A stretch of DNA of 64,000 nucleotides, from positions 33,153-97,152 of the forward strand of contig CANSRH010000001.1 in assembly GCA_947649365.1 (NCBI GenBank), read 5' to 3'. The position numbers and the translations under genes were made by a program. This document shows, one piece after another, positions 44,499-51,164 of the stretch (the stretch's first letter is position 1; each line of letters starts with the position of its first letter). The notes beneath the pieces are model-generated. The model made no database searches. It was not told where the DNA came from and saw only the letters and a list, made by a program, of their open reading frames with translations. Origin of the DNA: an uncultured Mycoplasmatota bacterium (GTDB lineage Bacteria; Bacillota_I; Bacilli_A; RF39; UBA660).

Positions 44499-45350
44499 TT
44501 AGCAACGGAAATTGCCTTTCATGATGGCATCTATCGCTTGTAAATTATTTTTTACTTCTAATGAGAGTACTCGTTTTATGCCTTCTAACACATTTTCTTT
44601 TGTTTGCTCTTTTATATCCATAAATACTTCATTGAATTGAATTTCTTTTATTTTTTCTAGATATTCTTTTAAAACACTTATTTCTTTATAGGATCCATTT
44701 TTTAGAAAATTTTCTATTGTTAGAGAGGCTGGTGGTGTATTTCTTGTTAATGGTGTATCTTGGTATTGCAATTTGTATCCGTTTTCATTCTCGTCTTGAA
44801 TTCTAATTGTTCCGTAGAGTCCAAAGTCATAAAAAGGAGAAAAATGAAGAAAGGAATCTTCTACATAGGTTTCTAAATTGGCTGGTTTTAAATCACTATT
44901 GCCTAATAAAATTTGAATAATGAATCGCTCTAATAATTCTTGTTCTATCTCTTTACTATAAATTAAATGATTTTTTAAACAATACCATTGTAGTAAAACT
45001 TTTAAATCTGTTACAGTATACAAAGGTTTATTAGAAAAATAATTGCAATACTCTTTCATCATATCATAGATATTTTTTATTTCTTTTTTTTGCATCGTAT
45101 AGTCTTCTGATATTATCCCTTTTTGATTTTTTCTTTTGGCCAGATCATTTCTTACAACAGGCAAGTCTAGTTTGGCTATAATACGCGGATAAAATAGTTC
45201 TCGATAGCTCATCAAAATATCTTGTATTTTAAATAATTTAATTGATTGTCTATTTGTATACCATCCTTCACAATAGTCTCCTTGTTTCCAGTTCAATTTA
45301 TCAATCGGTTTATAATTATCAATAATACAATACCCATTTCTTCTTTTCAT
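44499..45350 (-). CDS. HipA-like serine/threonine kinase domain protein (copy 1)
   Basis: About 283 aa, no signal peptide. The catalytic half matches HipA/PI-kinase-like enzymes: FIIQILLGNSDLKPANLETY (GNxDxxxxN catalytic loop) followed by FSPFYDFGLYG (Mg-binding DFG-like Asp). Upstream, SYRELFYPRIIAKLDLPVVRNDLA and GIISEDY correspond to the N-lobe and hinge. HipA proteins of E. coli phosphorylate a glutamyl-tRNA synthetase. There is no HipB-type repressor next to it. The start may be ATG 45350 or GTG 45359; predicted leaders are very short. A paralogue lies 3 kb upstream. Confidence 0.7.
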   Translation of the reverse strand: MKRRNGYCIIDNYKPIDKLNWKQGDYCEGWYTNRQSIKLFKIQDILMSYRELFYPRIIAKLDLPVVRNDLAKRKNQKGIISEDYTMQKKEIKNIYDMMKEYCNYFSNKPLYTVTDLKVLLQWYCLKNHLIYSKEIEQELLERFIIQILLGNSDLKPANLETYVEDSFLHFSPFYDFGLYGTIRIQDENENGYKLQYQDTPLTRNTPPASLTIENFLKNGSYKEISVLKEYLEKIKEIQFNEVFMDIKEQTKENVLEGIKRVLSLEVKNNLQAIDAIMKGNFRC

Positions 45351-45367
45351 AACTATCACAAATGTCT

Positions 45368-45395
45368 ATTTTAACATAGGTTGCTTTTCTTGCAA
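45368..45395 (-). promoter_or_regulatory. Promoter of HipA-like copy 1
   Basis: TTGCAA-N16-TAAAAT on the minus strand. The -10 ends 17 bases before ATG 45350, so the mRNA would have a leader of about 10 bases, or start at the GTG. Confidence 0.65.
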
Positions 45396-45404
45396 AATAA
45401 AAAG

Positions 45405-46397
45405 CTATTCTTTTTCAATAACTTCTTTATTTATCACATTTTGACATGGATTGTTGTTTAAAATTTGTATTAAGTTTTCGATACACATCTTTTTAACTCT
45501 TTCTAATCCTTCCACCGCATTATAACCTGTATGAGGAGTTAACAAAAACTTTCCATTTGGTAATGTTAAAAGTTTTGCTTCTTTTGAGTTTAGATTGATA
45601 GGTTCACTATAGAATCCATCAAAAGCACACCCCGCTATTTTATTATTTTTTAATAATTTATAAAGTGCTTCTGCATCCACTATTTCTGCTCTTGCAGTAT
45701 TAATAAAATAAGCTGTTTCTTTCATTTTAAAAAGTTCTTTTTCTCCTATTAAATTGCGTGTACTATCCGTAAGGGGTAAATGCAGAGAAACAACATCCGA
45801 TTTTTCCATTAATTCTTCTAGTGATGTTCTTTTTGCATAATAGTTTTTTTCTTGTTCTAGTTTATTTTCTTTATCATAATATAAAATATTCGCATGGAAA
45901 GCATTGTACATTATGTTTGCAAAATAAGATCCTATGTGGCCCATGCCGATTATTCCTATTGTTTTATCTTTTAAATCAAAGAAAGATTTTTCACGCCAGT
46001 TTCCTTTTTTAGTTTCTTCATTGTGCTGTATTATTTTTTGATTTAATGCGAATATTAATCCTAGTGTAAATTCTGCAACTGAGTAAGAATTTACTTTTGG
46101 AGTATTTGCTATTATTTTTCCATATTTGTTGGCAATTTCCATATCAATACATTTTTGATATCCTATACCAAAAAATTGTATAACTTTTAGATTTTCACAT
46201 TGTTTTAAGATGTTTTCTGTATAATATTCTTCTCCGTTTACAATAACAGCTTCATAATTTTGAAGAATTTTTATTAATTCTTGCTCTTTTATATGCGGAG
46301 GCACAATCGTAATTTCTAATCCTAATTTTTTTAATTTTTCTAATTCTTCTTTAGTAAAAATATTTTCTCCTCCAGTAAAAAGTATTTTATGCATCAT
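45405..46397 (-). CDS. D-2-hydroxyacid dehydrogenase family protein
   Basis: 330 aa NAD(P)-dependent oxidoreductase. Rossmann motif GIIGMGHIGSYFANIMY, STRNLIGEKELFKMKETAYFINTAR (Arg-type substrate loop), an AFDGFYSEP segment and HTGYNAVEG with the catalytic His. Substrate (D-lactate, glycerate, phosphoglycerate) is not evident. GAGGA before the first ATG. Sits in the insert between rpsR and rplI, so probably accessory. Confidence 0.9.
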   Translation of the reverse strand: MMHKILFTGGENIFTKEELEKLKKLGLEITIVPPHIKEQELIKILQNYEAVIVNGEEYYTENILKQCENLKVIQFFGIGYQKCIDMEIANKYGKIIANTPKVNSYSVAEFTLGLIFALNQKIIQHNEETKKGNWREKSFFDLKDKTIGIIGMGHIGSYFANIMYNAFHANILYYDKENKLEQEKNYYAKRTSLEELMEKSDVVSLHLPLTDSTRNLIGEKELFKMKETAYFINTARAEIVDAEALYKLLKNNKIAGCAFDGFYSEPINLNSKEAKLLTLPNGKFLLTPHTGYNAVEGLERVKKMCIENLIQILNNNPCQNVINKEVIEKE

Positions 46398-46492
46398 TTG
46401 TTCCTCTTTTCTACATCTATTATAATCAAATTATTTTATAGTTGCAAAAAATATTACATTTTAAAATTATTTTGTTTTTTATAAATTAAAAA

Positions 46493-46512
46493 AACATTCC
46501 ATAAAGAATGTT
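46493..46512 (-). terminator. Terminator after the 552-aa gene
   Basis: AACATTC-TTTATG-GAATGTT followed by TTTTTTAA on the minus strand, close to the stop codon. Confidence 0.8.
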
Positions 46513-46516
46513 CCTA

Positions 46517-48169
46517 TTAAGCAGCTTCTTGATTTCTTATCATTTCTGGATTGAATGTAGGTATTTCTTCTATCGTTCTTTCTGGTGTATTATCTAATCC
46601 TGGAAATAAGTCATCTTTGTTTTCACGTGATGCATATCTTTGGTCACTTTCTAGTTTTTCAGCCCAAATTGATAAATAACTTTCTGCTGATTCTTCTCCT
46701 CTTGTACGAATAAATTGTTTTAGGTAAGCTACTCCTCCTAATTTTTCTATAGTATCTGCAGAATAGATTTGTAACCAATCTGGTAGTTCTAAATTGTTTC
46801 TTTTGAATGTAAATAAGTTTTTCATTTGTTCCATTGTTACATTGGATTTTTGAATGGTTCCTCCATCTCTTACAAAGGAAATGTCTTCCATTACATTTTC
46901 GATATGATCTTCTGCCCATTTCATTACTTCTAATGTATCTTTTGCACTTATTCTAGATATCAATTCTGTTAATTTATTAGCAAAAATTGTTTGGTATTCT
47001 TTTAGTATTTCACTTAGTTTGTTTCTTAATTCTGGAGTATAGTATTGACTACTTAAGGCAAGTCCCATCACTTGGAACCAATCATTTGTATTATAACTTG
47101 ACCAGTGCCCATAAATAATACGTTCTTTTTCACTTTCTAGTTGTTTACTTAAATTAGCTAGTTTGTCTGGTAGTAAATTCGCGAGTGTTATACCAAAAAT
47201 ATTTTTGTATTCTCCTACTCTCCAATCAGATGCTATACATCCTGCTTCTTCATAACGATTGTAAACACCCATGCAGCCATCAATCATATCAACTGTTACT
47301 TCAATACCTTCTTTGTCATAACTTATTTCAGATGTTGGTCTTGTATAAACATCAAAGGCCGGATAATTTCTGCAATCACATATTAAAGACATTGTTGCAC
47401 CATAGTATCCTAATTTTTGTTTGTCTGGATATGGGTCTTTGTTTCCAAAGATACTTACAACAATTTCTTCTTCATTCACTGGCAAGCTTTCTTTTAATTT
47501 TACGTTTGCTGAGCCGTTGAATAAGAAATATTCGTGTAGTTTTTCATGAATTTCTTTTTCTTGTATGTCTGTTATGGTATGGTATCCTAGTTGAAAGCCT
47601 TTTACTCCTATTAAATAATGATATAATAATTGCACTGGCATATCTTCTGTCGTATCAAAATTTTCATATGCAAAACGTGTTTTTTTATTTTTAATGTTTA
47701 CTTTGTCTTTTTTGCTCCACCAATCATATGCTTCTTTTAAAGTAGAAGGTTTTACATAAGAAGGTAATTCTTCTATATTTTCTCCATAAATGCTGAATTT
47801 TTTCTTGTATGGAAATTCAGAAATATGGTGCATTTCTATTTCCCCTGATGCATTTGCCGTTTGGTATAAAACAGTATTTCCTTCTTCATCTTCATAAACA
47901 TTTATGATTTGGTATTCTCTATTGTTGATACTTACATCAATTAATTTGCTTACATCAAATTCTGCTTCTAAATATTCTACTGGATTTTGCAAAATAGATT
48001 GATAATTTCCTAAATTAACACGAATATTCGCACAACTATTTAATATTTCTGGTTGCACTTGTTGCCATTCAGGACGACCACTCTCTAAATTGTCAACATC
48101 AACAATTAGCATTTGGTATGGTTCTTGTTCATTTCTTAATCCATTGGATAAACCGACTAATATTTTCAT
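46517..48169 (-). CDS. Large soluble protein of unknown function (about 550 aa)
   Basis: No signal peptide, no membrane helix, no motif I recognise. N-terminal part: MKILVGLSNGLRNEQEPYQM and LGNYQSILQNPVEYLEAEF. Middle: IFGNKDPYPDKQKLGYYGATMSLICDCRNYPAFDVY and VTVDMIDGCMGVYNRYEEAGCI. C-terminal helical region and a Glu/Pro-rich tail. Start at ATG 48169 after GAGGTT; the track uses a TTG two codons earlier. It lies between the two HipA-like genes but has its own promoter, so a functional link is speculative. A substrate or effector of the kinases is one possibility. Confidence 0.55.
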   Translation of the reverse strand: MKILVGLSNGLRNEQEPYQMLIVDVDNLESGRPEWQQVQPEILNSCANIRVNLGNYQSILQNPVEYLEAEFDVSKLIDVSINNREYQIINVYEDEEGNTVLYQTANASGEIEMHHISEFPYKKKFSIYGENIEELPSYVKPSTLKEAYDWWSKKDKVNIKNKKTRFAYENFDTTEDMPVQLLYHYLIGVKGFQLGYHTITDIQEKEIHEKLHEYFLFNGSANVKLKESLPVNEEEIVVSIFGNKDPYPDKQKLGYYGATMSLICDCRNYPAFDVYTRPTSEISYDKEGIEVTVDMIDGCMGVYNRYEEAGCIASDWRVGEYKNIFGITLANLLPDKLANLSKQLESEKERIIYGHWSSYNTNDWFQVMGLALSSQYYTPELRNKLSEILKEYQTIFANKLTELISRISAKDTLEVMKWAEDHIENVMEDISFVRDGGTIQKSNVTMEQMKNLFTFKRNNLELPDWLQIYSADTIEKLGGVAYLKQFIRTRGEESAESYLSIWAEKLESDQRYASRENKDDLFPGLDNTPERTIEEIPTFNPEMIRNQEAA

Positions 48170-48233
48170 TTTCAACCTCTTCCTATTCTTAGTAAAATTT
48201 ATTACCTTTACTAGTTTCTTCTTATTCTTTTTT

Positions 48234-48263
48234 ATTATATCATAATTTTTTTATTTTCTACAA
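48234..48263 (-). promoter_or_regulatory. Promoter of the 552-aa gene
   Basis: TTGTAG, 18-base spacer, TATAAT on the minus strand; leader about 60 bases. Confidence 0.6.
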
Positions 48264-48373
48264 TATTCCTTACATTTTAGTGTAAATTGCTTTCTTTTTT
48301 GCTTTATTAGACATTTTTTGTCACTTTTTTACAGAGTATAATAATTTTTATTGCTATTTTTATTATTGCTTTC

Positions 48374-49264
48374 CTATTCTTTTTTATTACACAATTCATA
48401 AATATTTGTTAAATTCTTTTTTAACTTTTTTCTTACATATTTTGCCATATCCTTTGATACATGCTTACCAATTTGGTCTTCTATTTCTTCTTCAATATAT
48501 ATAGTTTTTGCTGCTTCTTCTCTCGCTTTTTCTAAATATTCATTTAATAATTCAATTTCTTTTTTAGTTGCGTTGTCTAAAAATTGCTTTAGCGTTTCTT
48601 TTGGTTTTATTATTTCTCCTTCTTTTGTTGTTTTATATTGAAAGCGATAAGGATAGCTTTTTTTGCCTTTTATATTTATTTCCCCATATTCTCCAAAATC
48701 GTATAATGGAGAAAATTTTGCTGTTTTTTCTATCACAATTTCTAGATTCCTAGCATGCAAATCTATACTTCCTCCAATAATTTGGGCAATAAATTGTAAA
48801 AGACTTTCTTCTTGCATATGAGGACTTTGGATATTTTTATTATCTAGTAAAAATAAGTCTATGATTCCAGGAAGTCGTTCTAAATTATAATCATGTTCGT
48901 AGCTAATTGTTGATGCTAAATAATATTTTTGTTCTTTATTAATTCGTCTAATTTTTTCGTCCCAAAACTTATTTAATATTTGCTCTACTGAATAAATGGG
49001 AAATTGGTTAGGATTGTAGTTTTTTGCTATTACTCCAAATTGACTCCCTAAAACCGCTAAGTCTATTTCAACTGTTCTGAAATTTATTTTTCTCATAAAA
49101 TAAGAATAAAAAAGTTCTTTGTATGCTTTGTAATTACTTACTACTTTAAACAAATATTCGTTTTCTCCATCACTATACCATGATTTTGCAAATAACGAGC
49201 ATGCTATTTGACGATTTAATTTTTTATATTCTCCTATATTTCTATAGCCATTGATTCGTTCCAT
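48374..49264 (-). CDS. HipA-like serine/threonine kinase domain protein (copy 2)
   Basis: About 296 aa. FIAQIIGGSIDLHARNLEIV (catalytic loop with Asp, His and Asn, closer to HipA than copy 1) and FSPLYDFGEYG (Mg-binding). N-lobe YKELFYSYFMRKINFRTVEIDLAVLGSQFGVIAKNY aligns with copy 1. A C-terminal Lys-rich helix follows. The frame also opens at a GTG three codons earlier (49273). TAAAAT lies about 17 bases before the ATG, as in copy 1. No HipB-like HTH is nearby; toxin, bodyguard or signalling role is open. Confidence 0.7.
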   Translation of the reverse strand: MERINGYRNIGEYKKLNRQIACSLFAKSWYSDGENEYLFKVVSNYKAYKELFYSYFMRKINFRTVEIDLAVLGSQFGVIAKNYNPNQFPIYSVEQILNKFWDEKIRRINKEQKYYLASTISYEHDYNLERLPGIIDLFLLDNKNIQSPHMQEESLLQFIAQIIGGSIDLHARNLEIVIEKTAKFSPLYDFGEYGEINIKGKKSYPYRFQYKTTKEGEIIKPKETLKQFLDNATKKEIELLNEYLEKAREEAAKTIYIEEEIEDQIGKHVSKDMAKYVRKKLKKNLTNIYELCNKKE

Positions 49265-49281
49265 AATTCTCACAATTTGTT

Positions 49282-49287
49282 ATTTTA
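49282..49287 (-). promoter_or_regulatory. -10 element of HipA-like copy 2
   Basis: TAAAAT in the context TATGTTAAAATA, shared with the promoter of copy 1. The -35 is poor and overlaps the rpsR terminator. Confidence 0.45.
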
Positions 49288-49300
49288 ACATAAAGACAGA

Positions 49301-49323
49301 AAAAAAACATTCTTTTTGGAATG
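49301..49323 (-). terminator. Terminator of rpsF-ssb-rpsR
   Basis: CATTC-CAAAAA-GAATG followed by eight T on the minus strand, directly after rpsR. Confidence 0.75.
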
Positions 49324-49324
49324 C

Positions 49325-49540
49325 TTATTTTACAAATGGTATTAATGCCATAAATCTTGCATATTTGATTTGCTCAGCAATATGTCTTTGGTGTTTTGCA
49401 CATGCACCAGTCATACGTCTAGGTAAAATTTTACCTTTTTCATTTATGTATTTATTAATAATCATTACATCTTTATAATCAACGCTTTTCCCAGCACACA
49501 TTTGGCATATTTTTTTCTTTTTTCTACGAAATTCTGCCAT
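49325..49540 (-). CDS. rpsR: 30S ribosomal protein S18
   Basis: 71 aa. RRKKKKICQMCAGKSVDYKDV includes the CxxC pair of zinc-type S18, then INEKGKILPRRMTGACAKHQRHIAEQIKYARFMALIPF. AAAGGAG before the ATG; third gene of the rpsF-ssb-rpsR unit. Confidence 0.98.
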   Translation of the reverse strand: MAEFRRKKKKICQMCAGKSVDYKDVMIINKYINEKGKILPRRMTGACAKHQRHIAEQIKYARFMALIPFVK

Positions 49541-50489: not shown

Positions 50490-51164
50490 TTAATTATCCA
50501 CATAGGGAAGTCGTTCTTTTCTGATTAATGCATTTTGCTCGATTTCTTTTTTCTTTTTTTCCTGTGCAGGTATTGCTCTTTTAAAACTTTCTAAAGTCAT
50601 CTCTTCTTCATTTTGTAAAAGATATCTTGCAATTTGAAAAAATCGTCTTTTTTGTTTGAAATTTTCAAGCATTGAAATAAGAATAGAAGGCTTAATAGTT
50701 ATAAAAGCGCTGATTTCTAGTTGCTCTAATATATATGGCGCACAATCCAAAAAAAGAGATTCATAACTTTCTTCTTGGATACATTCTTTATCTAATTTGT
50801 ACAATCGTACTAAATTTCCTGTTGCCATTCTTTTTAATAATAAGTCTTCTGTTTTTATATAGATATTTTTGTAGGTTGTATTTTGGAACAATGGTACGAT
50901 TTCTCTTTTTCCTTTTTTTATATAGATTCCTAGCAATTCTATATCAATAATTTCTAAAACTATACCATAGACTTCTCTTCTTTTATTTAAGCTTTCTATT
51001 AATTCTTGTTTTTTTTCTTTAAAAAATTCTCTTTCATTTTTATAATTAAAAGTCATTTTATCTAATTCTTCTATAAAGTCGGTTTTATATGGGTATTCTA
51101 TTTCTACCTCTTGTAAGCTATATGCTTTTATAGATAGTATCAAAGGATAAAAATTTCCATTCAT
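50490..51164 (-). CDS. Hypothetical protein (224 aa)
   Basis: Soluble, charged and largely helical. Contains LILSIKAYSLQEVEIEYPYKTDF, EREFFKEKKQELIESLNKRREVYGIVLEIIDIELLG and ENFKQKRRFFQIARYLLQNEEEM. No motif is recognised. The start overlaps the DUF218 stop (ATGA), so translation is coupled and the two probably act together. Confidence 0.55.
   Translation of the reverse strand: MNGNFYPLILSIKAYSLQEVEIEYPYKTDFIEELDKMTFNYKNEREFFKEKKQELIESLNKRREVYGIVLEIIDIELLGIYIKKGKREIVPLFQNTTYKNIYIKTEDLLLKRMATGNLVRLYKLDKECIQEESYESLFLDCAPYILEQLEISAFITIKPSILISMLENFKQKRRFFQIARYLLQNEEEMTLESFKRAIPAQEKKKKEIEQNALIRKERLPYVDN

Follow-up and report, generated by a model that had tools for sequence, protein, structure and literature searches.

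Two HipA-like core kinases without an adjoining antitoxin gene lie between rpsR and rplI in an uncultured gut bacterium

The window, a 64,000-nucleotide stretch of DNA (G000:C1:33153-97152), comes from a 1.47-Mb assembly in 43 contigs of an uncultured gut bacterium. On its minus strand, four genes separate rpsR (ribosomal protein S18; 49325..49540) from rplI (L9; 44007..44450), in the order rpsR, KIN_B, ORPH, HADH, KIN_A, and rplI. KIN_A (44499..45350) and KIN_B (48374..49264) encode HipA-like core kinases of 283 amino acids from an ATG at 45350 and 296 amino acids from an ATG at 49264, respectively. The frames are also open from GTG codons at 45359 and 49273, and for KIN_A the ATG is the likelier start. 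Both open reading frames lie where the initial annotation had placed them, with 49264 correct for the KIN_B ATG, and both products are, as it had remarked, shorter than classical HipA. HADH (45405..46397, minus strand) encodes a D-2-hydroxyacid dehydrogenase, and ORPH (46517..48175, minus strand) is a genus-level gene for a 552-amino-acid protein without a family match; both are considered here as kinase neighbours only. A promoter-like sequence, TTGCTA-18-TATAAT (44505-44476), lies just upstream of rplI. We infer that the ribosomal genes on either side form a site that tolerates insertions and are not functional partners of the kinases.

HipA-type catalytic and Mg-binding motifs had been claimed for both proteins, and the claim was borne out by the motifs themselves (LLGNSDLKPANLE and FSPFYDFG in KIN_A; IGGSIDLHARNLE and FSPLYDFG in KIN_B), by profile searches, and by the predicted fold of KIN_A. 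The catalytic set of KIN_A, counted from the GTG, is K44, E54, D156, N161, and D178. In an alignment of 29 kinases from several genera, which are 16 to 35% identical to KIN_A, residues K44, G81, D156, and D178 were invariant, with almost no variation at E54, A74, and N161, and the K/E/D/N/D set was present with few exceptions among 44 kinases compared. A search against HipA_C, proposed earlier as a check, succeeded in part: KIN_A matched at an E value of 6e-4 and 20 bits, under the Pfam gathering cutoff of 30.5 bits, and KIN_B gave zero match in the Pfam search. The 29-sequence profile (A3) reached CtkA at 6.8e-14 and HipT at 8e-5, and PADLOC PDC-M03A matched KIN_A at 6.9e-8 and KIN_B at 2.4e-6. 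By profile match, PDC-M03A is the nearest described family of the window kinases.

Structure prediction from a nine-sequence alignment gave a confident KIN_A model with a kinase fold (pLDDT 88.3; pTM 0.88), the outcome on which the initial annotation had staked its kinase assignment. The best match to this fold in the PDB was CtkA (E value, 6.8e-10; TM score against chain 3akj_A, 0.67 to 0.69), followed by HipA and HipT, the latter at an E value of about 1e-6. A search of a viral structure library returned large proteins of phages and kinases of giant viruses, all as weak matches. The HipA-like assignment is secure despite the sub-threshold HipA_C score because of the combined profile, structural, and family evidence. 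In the alignment of 44 kinases, a Gly-rich loop with an adjacent Ser, present as YGGSERK in the HipM-type comparison kinases, was unrecognizable by sequence-based judgement in KIN_A, KIN_B, and their relatives in the genus, and nucleotide binding or regulation may therefore differ in the window kinases. We conclude that KIN_A and KIN_B are probably small, active protein kinases.

Neither kinase has a HipB-like helix-turn-helix (HTH) neighbour, as had been noted, and family searches of the window neighbours found no HipB (HTH), HipS, HipN, or HipP gene adjoining KIN_A or KIN_B. HipN, scanned for as PADLOC PDC-M03B, was not found in the window genome or in 19 further genomes of the family that carry a kinase, all considered as incomplete assemblies; the same scan matched both positive controls, the two-gene relatives in G261 (same family) and G038 (same class). 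That control-backed scan replaces a search with PDLC04346 alone, which matched nowhere and carries little weight. PDC-M03A/B fits the hipIN organization (PMC8262856) because PDC-M03B matches, at L153 and L167, carry a HIRAN domain, and on that basis we identify the PDC-M03A/B pair as looking like hipIN. A text search of the literature, preprints excluded, returned no paper on PDC-M03. Many genera of the family have core-only kinases with no HipA-type partner, which supports the earlier suggestion of a stand-alone kinase family.

Other gene arrangements were seen at separate loci. At L203 (G005:C21), a hipBST-like set of three genes encodes an HTH protein, a 112-amino-acid protein that is HipS-like by eye, and a HipA_C kinase. 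At L156, L158, L170, and L154, a kinase gene is followed by a gene for a protein of 261 to 294 amino acids in an arrangement that resembles hipMP; three of the four downstream genes match PDC-M03B weakly, and a resolvase-like C terminus was seen by eye.

PDC-M03 is a candidate defence family, and one explanation is that the window kinases are single-component abortive-infection kinases, in which the A gene of a hipIN-like system needs no HIRAN partner and responds directly to infection. Of the 29 relatives, 28 are matched by PDC-M03A profiles (best, 1.4e-30), the two-gene relatives in G261 and G038 show the complete arrangement, and fast evolution and turnover, described below, would suit such a role. 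The defence function of PDC-M03 is itself a prediction, however, the window kinases score far more modestly than the best relative, and no recognized defence gene was found among the tested window neighbours. We consider this explanation unlikely. The initial annotation's suggestion of defence thus survives as a possibility attached to the PDC-M03A match and not to the four-gene group.

Sequence patterns predict an extended −10 element, TGTTAAAAT, upstream of both KIN_A (45368..45376, minus strand) and KIN_B (49282..49290, minus strand), and the predicted mRNA start of KIN_A lies about 9 to 11 nucleotides 5′ of the ATG. KIN_A and KIN_B have in common a 70-nucleotide stretch of 73% identity that spans the promoter-like region. 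Within the clade to which they belong (see below), TGNTANAAT was present 6 to 8 nucleotides 5′ of an in-frame GTG or ATG, and 15 to 17 nucleotides 5′ of the likely ATG, in seven of the eight intact kinases, which occupy three sites; the sole exception is the copy on contig C7. The pattern was found at the same spacing in 2 of 367 other open reading frames (Fisher P = 1.5e-12, a value that is overstated because the set of reading frames was mechanical, the copies are related, and the pattern was defined post hoc on the kinases). The promoter-like element predicted for the kinases of this clade is new here.

Folding searches also indicated terminator-like hairpins upstream of kinase copies. In the window, a hairpin with a T-run was predicted by single-sequence folding in the gap between rpsR and KIN_B (49306..49326, minus strand), and another was predicted by folding ahead of KIN_A, in the gap after HADH, whose 3′ end it overlaps (45398..45428, minus strand); both are unlisted by a consensus scan. 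Because they have their own promoter-like element and terminator-like hairpins upstream, the clade kinases are probably separate transcription units. A leaderless start at the GTG, suggested by a conserved GTGAT 6 to 8 nucleotides after the −10 element, was considered and rejected: GTGA 3 to 7 nucleotides before the ATG is common (79 of 375 open reading frames), and the GTG of G208 is out of frame. The GTGA is better read as a Shine-Dalgarno-like element, with a very short predicted leader remaining.

Kinase matches were found in 59 of 243 genomes of the family at an E value of ≤1e-3; a broader profile, used at 1e-6, found them in 63 of 395 genomes of the class. Within the genus, intact kinases are present in the window genome, G016, G014, G021, and G003. 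In G020, the closest species, KIN_B is apparently intact but split by a contig end and KIN_A is dead. Kinase remnants are present in G015 and G019, and the kinase of G005 is frameshifted and probably decayed, with assembly error also possible. In G009 and G011, rpsR directly adjoins rplI without an insert. Absences are soft because the genomes are metagenome bins, some of them incomplete. The survey therefore showed patchily distributed kinases and not single-copy core genes of the site, the alternative that the initial annotation had set against its reading.

Related kinases also occur outside the window in the same genome, at G000:C7:2263-3102 and G000:C6:24529-25383. The former copy (L045; G000:C7:1-12000) is the third and lies between spoIVA and serine hydrolase genes, with HTH genes further upstream. 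At G000:C12:46959-47402, a stretch that matches HipA_C and is interrupted by four stops is probably a decayed kinase. Separately, varied inserts were seen near rpsR or rplI in members of the genus (L037, L069, L035, L036, and L038), and the site appears insert tolerant; among the inserts are long surface-protein-like open reading frames adjoining ORPH or rplI and a protein of 121 to 132 amino acids upstream of ORPH.

The four genes had been proposed to form a mobile, defence, or persistence module, and this proposal was not supported. All four were seen together in the window genome and G020 only, and ORPH and HADH are distributed independently. ORPH is a separate gene of the genus, found in 14 of 22 genomes at 60 to 93% identity, mostly between rpsR and rplI and with or without a kinase; at 47 to 48% identity it was also found in two other bins, on stretches with no rpsR or rplI. 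HADH is rare (3 of 22 genomes) and lies at the rpsR-rplI site only in the window genome and G020. The block contains no mobility genes, KIN_B had no match among phage or plasmid records, and a scan for ORPH among viral contigs yielded no relatives. ORPH had no match above noise in Pfam, NCBIfam, PHROGs, PADLOC, or the PDB, and its structure model was poor (pLDDT 40). An ORPH product acting as an unrecognized regulator or antitoxin, such that kinase and ORPH form a functional unit, would account for their adjacency in the window, G021, and G014, where the pair lies at nusG. Intact kinases lacking ORPH in G003 and G016, the absence of ORPH beside the intact kinases of G073, G208, and G115, and the high identity that ORPH keeps in genomes whose kinase is missing or dead make such a unit highly improbable.

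The rpsR-rplI kinases of three genera, together with three copies at other sites in the genus, form one clade (support, 99/95), which also counts against a four-gene module. Because the kinases at rpsR-rplI belong to one supported clade, a single entry into the site is probable, after which the kinase was kept there, with later moves. Within the genus, the kinase gene has changed sites. KIN_A and KIN_B did not arise by a recent duplication, since they are only about 31% identical. Between the window genome and G020, the dN/dS ratio was 0.19 to 0.21 for KIN_B, 0.12 for elyC, and 0.03 to 0.08 for dnaB, ssb, rpsF, ORPH, HADH, and rplI; all of these ratios are rough because synonymous distances are near saturation. 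KIN_B is thus under purifying selection and changes about 2.5 to 7 times faster than most of its neighbours, and it is not the fastest gene nearby. In the same comparison, a 224-amino-acid protein encoded upstream of rpsF (50490-51164) had a dN/dS of 0.44, above that of KIN_B. Decayed copies in G015, G019, G020, and probably G005 indicate that the kinase gene is dispensable and turned over. Toxin and defence genes are often dispensable and turned over. We conclude that residence at rpsR-rplI is old and that, along the way, the kinase gene has been duplicated, relocated, left to decay, and lost. The window kinases are accessory copies, changing fast, of a kinase family found across the lineage.

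Another explanation is a nontoxic regulatory kinase that serves ordinary signalling by phosphorylating one host protein or a few, with no growth arrest or defence. The missing antitoxin, the promoter-like element, and the retained catalytic residues are compatible with such a kinase, and some kinases of other genera, which overlap nusB and xseA and look cotranscribed with these housekeeping genes, also fit a nontoxic role. As to housekeeping operons in general, an enrichment of kinases inside them was considered and rejected: codirectional neighbours on both sides were counted by eye for 22 of 26 kinases, which is no excess over the baseline of 369 of 447 genes (83%). Patchiness, several decayed copies, several copies per genome, and rapid divergence would be unusual for a core signalling kinase, and we regard this explanation as possible but doubtful, if less so than the abortive-infection kinase.

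The explanation that we tentatively prefer, at somewhat under even odds (a probability of roughly 0.45), is that KIN_A and KIN_B come from a branch of the HipA/HipI/HipM kinases that has only the core domain and no antitoxin, and that they act as reversible growth-arrest or phage-response kinases. It is supported by the kinase fold of KIN_A, the conserved catalytic residues, the lack of a recognized partner, the promoter-like element, the old residence with turnover, and the rapid yet constrained divergence. Such a kinase would move phosphate from ATP to a Ser or Thr of a host (or phage) protein; by analogy with HipA and HipT, the target would most likely be a component of translation, such as an aminoacyl-tRNA synthetase. 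Under stress or during infection, growth would then stop reversibly, and control without an antitoxin might come from low expression or from intrinsic inactivity until a trigger arrives. A more specific version, in which the kinases are single-gene growth-arrest effectors that are inactive alone, switched on by infection or stress, and moved together with their own compact promoter, is improbable as a whole. A widespread bare kinase core poses the question of how it is kept harmless without an antitoxin or extra domain, and KIN_A and KIN_B are small, expressible proteins for target finding.

Among known systems, CtkA of Helicobacter pylori (PDB 3akj, 3akk, and 3akl) is likewise a HipA-like Ser/Thr kinase that consists of a core of comparable length, and it is the best match of the 29-sequence profile and of the KIN_A fold, yet the identity is about 15%. 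CtkA is linked to a type IV secretion element that is mobile (PMC5536186), in contrast to KIN_B and its lack of phage or plasmid matches. HipI (hipIN) and HipM (hipMP) belong to clade XI of Gerdes et al. (2021) and are cores of 279 to 321 amino acids without the N-subdomain 1 of HipA (PMC8262856). The window kinases have in common with them a core without N-subdomain 1, the catalytic and Mg-binding motifs, and the match to PDC-M03A, but they lack an adjoining HipN (HipS-HIRAN) or HipP (resolvase-like) gene and, unlike HipM-type kinases, a recognizable Gly-rich loop with Ser. HipT of hipBST also lacks N-subdomain 1, but the window kinases have no adjoining HipB or HipS. The monocistronic HipH/YjjJ and HipL resemble the window kinases in having no antitoxin gene, but HipH begins with an HTH at its N terminus and HipL includes HipS-like and HIRAN domains (PMC8262856), whereas the window kinases have no extra domain. 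Each of the Hip kinase organizations described in that work has either an antitoxin gene or an extra domain. We conclude that KIN_A and KIN_B vary a known kind of kinase by being core-only and antitoxin-free, a novelty that is real but moderate.
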